Source: Allacma fusca (taxonomy: Eukaryota; Arthropoda; Collembola; Symphypleona; Sminthuridae). Taken from it: a stretch of DNA of 64,000 bases. The translations under genes and the position numbers were made by a program. Location: assembly GCA_947179485.1 (NCBI GenBank), contig OX359248.1:32869378-32933377 (forward strand), in the 5' to 3' direction. Every line of letters begins with the position of its first letter. Positions within the stretch are counted from its first letter, which is position 1. Below, piece after piece: positions 45,738 to 61,935 of this stretch. A model generated the notes under the pieces. That model was not told the DNA's origin. It saw only the letters and a list, made by a program, of their open reading frames with translations, and did no database searches.

Positions 45738-46817
<1,080 letters not shown>

Positions 46818-60295: not shown

Positions 60296-61869
60296 ATGGC
60301 CCCCGTAAGTACCAATTGTGATTGAATAACTAACTTAGTGTTTTGTTTTTTTCGTAATTAATTATTCCTAATAAAAGGATCATAATTTGAGACAAAATTG
60401 TGTCGCATGGCGTCGGCATATGACCATGCTGGTATTTTTTAGTCACTGTATATCGGTTGTAAATTTGTGTAGGTTTTAAAATTTGAAGTATTTAAGGTAG
60501 CCATTGGTTCATTTTGTTATTTGAAGTAAAATAATTATAATAGTAGAGTTGTATAGGAAGAATTAGGATTTAGGATTTTGAGTCAGGGATAGTCATGCAG
60601 TTGTAAGTGATGATAACCTCAAGCCAGAATTGCTCTGTTGGTACTTGTTTCAAGACGGGACTGATTACACTGCTTGGAAATGTTAATTTTGAAGGATGTT
60701 TTGTGGAGTTGTGTAAGTAAATAGTTTTGGGAATTATTATGTATTTCGTGTATTGCAGCCAGCAGATAAGAAGAAGGCCGGAGCAGCCAAGCCCGCAGCA
60801 GCAGCAGCAGCAGCTGGCGGAGCTAAGAAGGAGAATAAGGCTCCAGCGGCCGCCGCAGCAGCCAAGAAACCCGCCCCTGCCCCCGCGGCAGCTGCAGCCC
60901 CAAAGAAGGCGGAAGCTACTAAGACCAAAGCTGCTGCTCCCGCTGCCCCACCAAAGGCTGAGCCTAAGAAGGCAAAGGTCGAGCCTGTGAAGGCGCCCGC
61001 GGCGGCACCAGAAGCCAAACCAAAAGTTGAGGCTAAAGCAGAAAAAGCCCCAGCAGCACCCAAGAAAGAAGTGAAGAAAACACCGGCGAAGAAGCCTACT
61101 CCTAAGAAGACCCCTGCCAAGACCCCACTTCGGGGTAAGGGTGTCCCTGCCAAGAAGAAGAAGGTCGCGACAAAGTTCACCATCGACTGCTCTCTTCCCG
61201 CTGAAGATCAACTTTTGAATGCGAATGATTTCGTACGTAGATTTTATTTTTTGTTTGGGAGTTTAGTTTGATTTTTTTAGGTTTTCTTTTTGGGGGAGAA
61301 TCGATCAACCAGTGAAAGTAAATCACGCTCACTGATTTGACTTAGAGTTGTCTTCTCTAATGAATCAGTATTAGGGTTAACTTCCCTATACGGTTAATTA
61401 GGGTTTTCTTCCCTAATTAATATGAACTAGGGTTACCTTCCCTGGTTCAAAGGAATTAGGGTTACCTTCCCTAATTCTCATGGCGTGTTTATTTACTATC
61501 TCTAACAGGAGAAGTTCTTGAAGGAGAGAATAAAGATCGCAGGAAAGACCGGAAATCTTGGAAACGCCGTTACCCTTGAGCGAGGAGATAAACCATCGAA
61601 GGTCGTAGTTAATGCAAATGTCGCTTTCTCTAAGAGGTACAGTTATTTACATTACTGTTCTGCTATAATAATAAAGTTTTTTTATTTGGGCAACGTTAAT
61701 ATAATTCGTTTTTTAATTCAGATATTTGAAATACTTAACCAAGAAATACCTCAAGAAGAACTTGCTCCGTGATACCCTCCGTGTCATTTCTACGAGCAAG
61801 GATGGCTATGAATTGCGCTATTTCCAGATTGGAAATGAAGCCGATGATGATGAAGAAGACAACGAGTAA
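60296..61869 (+). CDS. RPL22: 60S ribosomal protein L22 (eL22) with H1-like N-terminal extension
   Basis: RNA-binding protein of the large ribosomal subunit. Exons: 60296-60304 (only ATG GCC CCC), 60759-61232, 61509-61636, 61722-61869; phases agree, giving 252 aa. Residues about 1-141 are an Ala/Lys/Pro-rich extension resembling histone H1 tails, as known for insect RpL22. Residues about 142-252 are the eL22 core: [63 protein letters not shown] and an acidic tail (DDDEEDNE). The canonical vertebrate protein is 128 aa. Intron 1 carries a C/D snoRNA and intron 2 a hairpin array (see separate entries). Divergently paired with PRPF6. The tiny first exon with the donor right after codon 3 is typical of ribosomal protein genes. 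Confidence 0.97.
60597..60673 (+). ncRNA. SNORD21-like: C/D box snoRNA, U21/SNORD21-like, in RPL22 intron 1
   Basis: C box GTGATGA at 60607-60613 and D box CTGA at 60661-60664. Flanks form a terminal stem: GCAG-TTGTAA (60597-60606) with TTACACTGC (60665-60673), nine pairs with one bulged T. The sequence just 5' of the D box (about 60646-60659, TGTTTCAAGACGGG) is complementary to the conserved 28S rRNA segment containing CCCGTCTTGAAACA. By the D+5 rule it would direct 2'-O-methylation of the G in CCCGTC. From memory the same guide-plus-D-box occurs in animal U21. Same strand as the host gene, as needed for processing from the intron. C' and D' boxes are not clear. Confidence 0.85.
61331..61478 (+). 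promoter_or_regulatory. Array of five intronic RNA hairpins in RPL22 intron 2
   Basis: Five diverged units start with AGRGTT at 61344, 61373, 61400, 61429 and 61458 (spacing 27-29 nt). Each folds as a stem with a 7-nt loop: TTGTCTT, TTAACTT, TTTTCTT, TTACCTT, TTACCTT. The loop is closed by G-C each time. Stems: TTAGAG/CTCTAA plus an outer ACTGATT/AATCAGT; TAGGG/CCCTA; TTAATTAGGG/CCCTAATTAA; TGAACTAGGG/CCCTGGTTCA (one G-U); GGAATTAGGG/CCCTAATTCT (one G-U). Stem sequences differ between units but keep pairing. The eL22 family binds stem-loops, so a role in autoregulation is inferred; a plain minisatellite with palindromic units is the alternative. Confidence 0.75.
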
Positions 61870-61935
61870 ACTTGACGAAATGTTTTAATATCTCAGTTTA
61901 ATCAATTTTACTCTTGTTTTCGAGTAATGGACACA

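Follow-up and report, generated by a model that had tools for sequence, protein, structure and literature searches.

The second intron of the RPL22 gene contained five hairpins in a row on the sense strand, at positions 61331-61478 of the window, and this location matched exactly the one given in the original prediction. The window is the whole 64-kb stretch of DNA analysed, corresponding to positions 32869378-32933377 of contig C12 in an assembly of 392.7 Mb and 91 contigs. All five loops consisted of seven nucleotides (UUGUCUU, UUAACUU, UUUUCUU, and UUACCUU twice) with the consensus UUNNCUU, and a G-C closing pair together with a U at the 3' end of the loop was found in 5 of 5 hairpins, as had likewise been predicted. 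We propose, with a probability of about 0.72, that the array is a five-site platform for the gene's own product, eL22, an excess of which would block the removal of intron 2 and lead to a premature stop. Judged by its likeness to the systems of yeasts and vertebrates, splicing feedback is the most likely function of the array.

RPL22 and the hairpins of its second intron

RPL22 occupied positions 60296-61871 on the plus strand and encoded a protein of 252 amino acids, its GT/AG junctions giving one open frame. A Pfam Ribosomal_L22e domain was detected in the product with an E value of 1.6e-42, preceded by a long Ala/Lys/Pro-rich N-terminal extension, and the core showed 64% identity over 110 columns with the eL22 chain 7o7y_BU, which we take to be that of a mammal. 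The product also contained the basic cluster KKYLKK, mutation of which abolishes RNA binding in human L22 according to the cited passages of PMC2668802 and PMC3750023 (published work is cited from such passages throughout). The parts of the gene were as follows.

60296-60304, plus strand: coding exon 1 (MAP), from the GT/AG junctions and the open frame
60305-60758, plus strand: intron 1, unremarkable in folding (z +1.27)
60759-61232, plus strand: exon 2, with the Ala/Lys/Pro-rich extension and the start of the L22e domain, from the junctions and Pfam
61233-61508, plus strand: intron 2, 276 nt, GTACGT...ACAG, between the codons for NDF and EKF, host of the array
61509-61636, plus strand: exon 3, from the open frame
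61637-61721, plus strand: intron 3, unremarkable in folding (z -0.11)
61722-61871, plus strand: exon 4, with KKYLKK, through the stop codon TAA, from the open frame and the alignment

A search of the genome with the 91-amino-acid part encoded by exons 3 and 4 gave two matches, both of them this gene, and no paralogue; the target of the array would thus be RPL22 itself. Scans for RPL22 in two sets of genome contigs outside this assembly gave no match, and those in two sets of viral contigs gave only two distant loci with 37% identity.

The hairpins H1-H5 had stems of 6 (with an additional outer stem of 8 bp), 5, 11, 10, and 10 bp, and were arranged as follows.

61331-61369, plus strand: H1, a core TTAGAG-TTGTCTT-CTCTAA within a separate 8-bp outer stem ACTGATTT/GAATCAGT
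61372-61388, plus strand: H2, TAGGG-TTAACTT-CCCTA, 5 bp, without an outer stem
61393-61421, plus strand: H3, GTTAATTAGGG-TTTTCTT-CCCTAATTAAT
61423-61449, plus strand: H4, TGAACTAGGG-TTACCTT-CCCTGGTTCA
61452-61478, plus strand: H5, GGAATTAGGG-TTACCTT-CCCTAATTCT

The distances between successive loop starts were 29, 27, 29, and 29 nt, and the end of H5 lay 30 nt from exon 3. The outer stem of H1 was unrelated in sequence to the stems of the other hairpins. Four G-U pairs were read from the sequence, located in the outer stem of H1 and in H3, H4, and H5.

The minimum free energy of the array was -59.7 kcal/mol, compared with a mean of -33.5 for shuffled sequences (z -7.31), and none of the 200 shuffles was equally stable; the reverse strand gave a z of -5.09. 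The z of the whole of intron 2 was -6.03, and the fold of the array was unchanged within the full intron, which confirmed for this one gene the folding that had been anticipated. The stems of H1-H5 had pair probabilities between 0.80 and 1.0 in the full intron and between 0.79 and 1.0 when two longer stretches of pre-mRNA were folded; the outer stem of H1 was less firm (0.68-0.87 in the longest stretch). Unusual folding by itself is not unique to the array: among 1,340 random windows of 148 nt, two had a z of -7 or below, namely -10.1 and -7.6, in a run with 30 shuffles each in which the array itself scored -9.0. One of these two was a long inverted repeat and the other a simple-sequence repeat, and neither was a row of separate hairpins. 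The inverted repeat (z about -10), in the sampled piece of locus L017 that starts at offset 6364, is near-perfect and is perhaps a small transposable element or a microRNA precursor.

We defined a consensus hairpin as one having a stem of at least 5 bp, a G-C closing pair, a 7-nt loop, and a 3' U. The window contained 17 such hairpins on the plus strand and 20 on the minus strand, with a mean of 13.2 per strand in 30 window shuffles, and a random sample of contig C12, 20 stretches of 10 kb each, contained 106 over both strands (400,000 strand-bases). The consensus is therefore loose, occurring about 0.27 times per kb by chance. Five of the 17 plus-strand hairpins sat within 137 nt, and the random stretches of contig C12 never held more than two per 250 nt. 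When intron 2 was shuffled 20,000 times with its dinucleotides preserved, zero, one, two, and three consensus hairpins were obtained in 17334, 2505, 152, and 9 shuffles, respectively, compared with the five observed. The pattern RGRGTTNNCTTCYCT, which was derived from the array hairpins themselves, had five matches in the 64-kb window, all of them in the array, with 0.02 expected.

Fit to the eL22 ligand and to known control systems

The L22 consensus is described as a stem-loop with G-C at the base of a loop of 5-7 nt and a U at the 3' end of the loop (PMC2668802); the loop is given as 5-9 nt in PMC4838235, and PMC5755908 words the consensus somewhat differently. All five hairpins fit the consensus as stated in PMC2668802 and PMC4838235 and are predicted ligands; the ligand type named in the original prediction, with a G-C neck and a 3' loop U, agreed with the consensus of PMC2668802. 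Since the loops of the complementary strand end in A, the reverse strand misses the consensus. Two mouse Alox12 oligonucleotides both fit the motif on paper, one of which was bound and the other unbound in the cited part of PMC12820725; the consensus is therefore a guide and no guarantee. Folding gave a G-C closing pair around UGUUUU for the bound oligonucleotide and an A-U closing pair around UGGAAU for the unbound one.

In the species' own 28S rRNA, the hairpin AGGUGG-UAAACU-CCAUCU was found in a stretch matching the printed primers for the SL7 ligand, as one of the 12 hairpins recorded at this locus with loops of 5-9 nt; part of the locus reads N. EBER1 and SL7 of 28S rRNA resemble the array as stem-loops that gave or fit the consensus with G-C and a 3' U, and EBER1 also in having more than one site per RNA (PMC2668802). 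They differ from it in being non-coding RNAs, and no common UUNNCUU loop is claimed.

Control of paralogue transcripts by L22 in yeasts and vertebrates had been put forward in the original prediction and is borne out by the cited passages of PMC4838235 and PMC11057873. In yeast, Rpl22p inhibits splicing of RPL22B via an intronic stem loop (PMC4838235), and RPL22 of K. lactis responds to its own protein (PMC5755908); both resemble the system proposed here in that eL22 represses the splicing of an RPL22 intron (PMC4838235, PMC5755908). The RPL22B element represses through an intronic stem structure, described in the cited passages as successive stems and internal loops; its apical loop is irrelevant, and it does not obviously resemble the SELEX motif. 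In the array, by contrast, the loop and the closing pair are the constant part. A general rule for hairpins close to a 3' splice site is contradicted by yeast RPL22A, in which a stable hairpin at such a place plays no part in regulation (PMC5755908). The human eL22 splice circuit acts on MDM4 and p53 (PMC12110047). The stem loops in MDM4 intron 6, which are bound by human RPL22 and change splicing, are intronic like the array but belong to another gene than eL22, and this likeness is drawn by description only (PMC12110047). Titles and abstracts gave no report of eL22 feedback in arthropods, crustaceans, insects, or Drosophila, which accords with the earlier statement that no arthropod description was known; as far as seen in the literature searched, reported eL22 feedback is confined to yeasts and vertebrates, and a multivalent array appears to be new.

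In vertebrates, RPL22 controls the splicing of RPL22L1, a gene of the eL22 family (PMC11057873, PMC12110047), and it also controls Rpl22l1 mRNA through a hairpin (PMC3750023). Loss of RPL22 raises RPL22L1a, in which exon 2 is joined to the distal 3' acceptor, RPL22L1b using the proximal one (PMC11057873). The RPL22L1b-specific reverse primer printed in PMC11057873 is the complement of GGTTCTCTTCCCTAGTTTTGCA, and a primer printed beside INHBA in PMC9334049 extends this sequence to GGGTTCTCTTCCCTAGTTTTGCAT. The primer in the INHBA row includes the RPL22L1b primer in full, and the reverse primers for INHBA and for RPL22L1 thus appear to have been exchanged in the primer list of PMC9334049. The human RPL22L1 stretch reads GGG-UUCUCUU-CCC, which is the 13-mer core GGGUUNNCUUCCC of H2-H5; the printed human primers have GGGTTCTCTTCCC and four of the five hairpins have GGGTTNNCTTCCC, H1 having GAG/CTC. 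This human hairpin is known from the printed primers, and its 5' flank lies outside them. Given the specificity of this primer for RPL22L1b, the human hairpin is expected in the stretch that separates the two acceptors, on the 5' side of the controlled distal 3' splice site. The RPL22L1a primer, with the reading NF-EQFLRE, should cross the exon junction, and the human intron thus seems to be at the same codon position, the primer-derived context being NF/EQFL in human and NDF/EKFL here.

Eleven fixed letters at a given place have a probability of 4^-11, or about 2.4e-7, which makes coincidence within this very gene and region unlikely even with dozens of printed sequences passed over. Some caution is called for: 17 papers printed one or more of four such strings, in most cases the 12-mer GGGAAGAGAACC, and words of this kind do occur elsewhere. 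We found no report of RPL22 binding to this RPL22L1 hairpin, and a published description of the hairpin may well exist. The vertebrate system differs in that one protein controls a paralogue, whereas the single gene found here would control itself; the printed human primers show one hairpin, compared with five here, and human RPL22L1 has alternative isoforms, whereas none is known for this gene, in which retention would give an early stop. Convergence on the preference of eL22 is as possible as common descent for the likeness of the cores. We give somewhat less than an even chance to the broader idea that the GGGUUNNCUUCCC hairpins of this gene and of human RPL22L1 are one ancient animal element, through which eL22 would have controlled the intron after the N-(D)-F codons since before the split of protostomes and vertebrates, vertebrates having turned to control of the paralogue and this lineage having multiplied the element to five sites for steep self-control. 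A five-site eL22 array in another lineage, with the human RPL22L1 core, would link the yeast and vertebrate cases. If true, it would narrow the loose consensus for L22 ligands to a target-predicting rule for the loop, UUNNCUU closed by G-C, and the array would be a natural multivalent RNA for asking how the number of sites sets the steepness of feedback.

Predicted feedback on intron 2 splicing

According to the proposed mechanism, eL22 exceeding the free rRNA sites would bind the UUNNCUU loops in the nuclear pre-mRNA, and the bound protein would hinder the branch point or the 3' splice site, both of which should lie within 30 nt after H5. Intron 2 would then be retained or mis-spliced, and with five sites the response would be steep. 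On retention, the frame would end 12 intron-encoded residues into the intron, and the message would probably be destroyed. Stop codons far upstream of an exon junction lead to message decay by the NMD rule; the retention stop lies more than 300 nt upstream of the exon 3/4 junction, so decay should be triggered. In addition, TTTTTTTAG/G (window 61270-61281, ending at 61280) is a candidate proximal 3' splice site giving a 48-nt intron. Splicing there would leave the array entire in the message, a parallel to human RPL22L1b, with a stop after 19 residues. The features concerned, including a predicted pairing of the two flanks of the array (the clamp), were as follows.

61269-61271, plus strand: premature stop TGA on retention of intron 2, from translation, with the position counted on the sequence
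61311-61329, plus strand: putative 5' arm of the clamp, predicted to pair with 61482-61497
61482-61497, plus strand: putative 3' arm of the clamp, from the predicted pairing, overlapping the branch-point region as placed by eye

The clamp comprised 24 flank-to-flank pairs. When both flanks were shuffled, 0 of 500 shuffles had as many pairs, and when the downstream flank was shuffled, 4 of 500 did. It is suggestive that the modelled clamp could add to the block by covering the branch-point region. The clamp would be the working part if the hairpins acted by structure alone, shortening the intron or hiding or presenting splice sites without eL22, and both the number of its pairs and the z of the whole intron (-6.03) are in keeping with such a role. 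However, shuffles matched its folding energy in 64 of 500 and 17 of 500 cases, respectively, and its longest unbroken run, of eight pairs, in 447 of 1000; since energy and run were so often reached, the clamp is weak evidence. Action by structure also leaves unexplained the constant UUNNCUU, the closing G-C, and the 3' U of all five hairpins, as well as the match to human RPL22L1, and we consider it improbable.

Lariat introns are normally short-lived, which argues against the excised or retained intron serving as a sponge that titrates eL22 like a multi-site viral RNA or tethers it in the nucleolus. Splicing control is likewise favoured by the closeness of the array to the 3' splice site (30 nt) and by the human parallel. 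The multivalency of the array would suit a sponge, a viral L22 ligand having three sites (PMC3750023, PMC2668802), and such a function seems to us rather unlikely.

Tandem duplication and copies elsewhere

H3-H5 formed a tandem array with a period of 29 bp and 79% matches, and from their sequences they look like tandem duplicates. The original prediction had held that a minisatellite would not keep pairing on both arms; this stood for the compensatory changes in H3-H5 and not for pairing as such, because a duplicated palindrome carries its pairs along and pairing alone is no proof of selection. The changes after duplication are better evidence for selection than the pairing itself. Seven stem substitutions in H3-H5 left all of the 30 pairs (30 of 30) intact, for which a neutral simulation with an assumed ancestral form gave a P of about 3.9e-5. 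Among them were three pairs of compensatory changes, of which one ended in G-U, together with a lone change to U-G. The claim that the stems vary and yet keep their pairs was upheld in these three hairpins, with the corrections that H2 has 5 bp and no outer stem and that four pairs of the array are G-U. When the five copies were aligned, both sides had changed in 4 of 10 pairs (equalled by 13 of 500 shuffles), and 84% of the cells were paired (reached by 20 of 500), compared with 37.5-62% when the alignment was slid by 1-3 columns, but the covariation score of 0.280 (reached by 19 of 500) was close to the 0.260 of a one-column slide, and the count of pair types was not unusual (reached by 313 of 500).

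No second copy of the array was found in the 393-Mb genome by a DNA search in which the best candidates were scored and common words were skipped. The exact-core pattern occurred at 12 places in the genome, four of them in the array, compared with 18 for a backward control. The other eight sites (L001-L008) scored 14.3-21.3 bits against 31.8-39.1 for the array, under a covariance model derived from the array, and held at most two consensus hairpins per 250 nt. Loci L011 and L012, scanned on one strand, held two and three scattered hairpins, respectively. A mobile or dispersed repeat was rejected because a second copy was not found in the genome and L001-L008 scored low, and a telomere-like TTAGGG repeat was rejected because the period of the array is 27-29 and its arms are self-complementary.

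A functionless palindromic minisatellite that happens to sit in intron 2 could account for the 29-bp tandem of H3-H5 and, through duplication of a palindrome, for their pairing, and two unrelated random stretches fold about as unusually. Against it stand the compensatory changes, the unrelated outer stem of H1, the second copy not found in the genome, the strand-specific fit to the ligand of a protein from the same gene, and the human core match, and we regard it as very unlikely. Binding by eL22 is itself predicted from the fit to its ligand, and the array might belong to another stem-loop binding protein or be a source of small RNAs, but no Rfam family reached the gathering threshold over the window, the seven matches of a permissive Rfam scan of intron 2 were far from threshold, and stems of 10-11 bp are short for microRNA precursors, so that we see hardly any chance for either.

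Several further observations were made in the window and the assembly. A Tc1-like transposase open frame was located at window positions 45777-46817 on the plus strand (PF01498, E 5.7e-17; PF13358, E 1.5e-11). A COX1 frame read with the invertebrate mitochondrial code would fit an animal, and the source species is probably one. No telomere repeat was recognisable at four contig ends, and the end of contig C12 (L042, 1-2500) consisted of a 12-bp satellite, GTTAAGCTTGTA, with about 209 copies in 2.5 kb. Besides contig C91, full-length or near full-length COX1 was present in contigs C5, C8, and C12, as nuclear mitochondrial copies or assembly joins.
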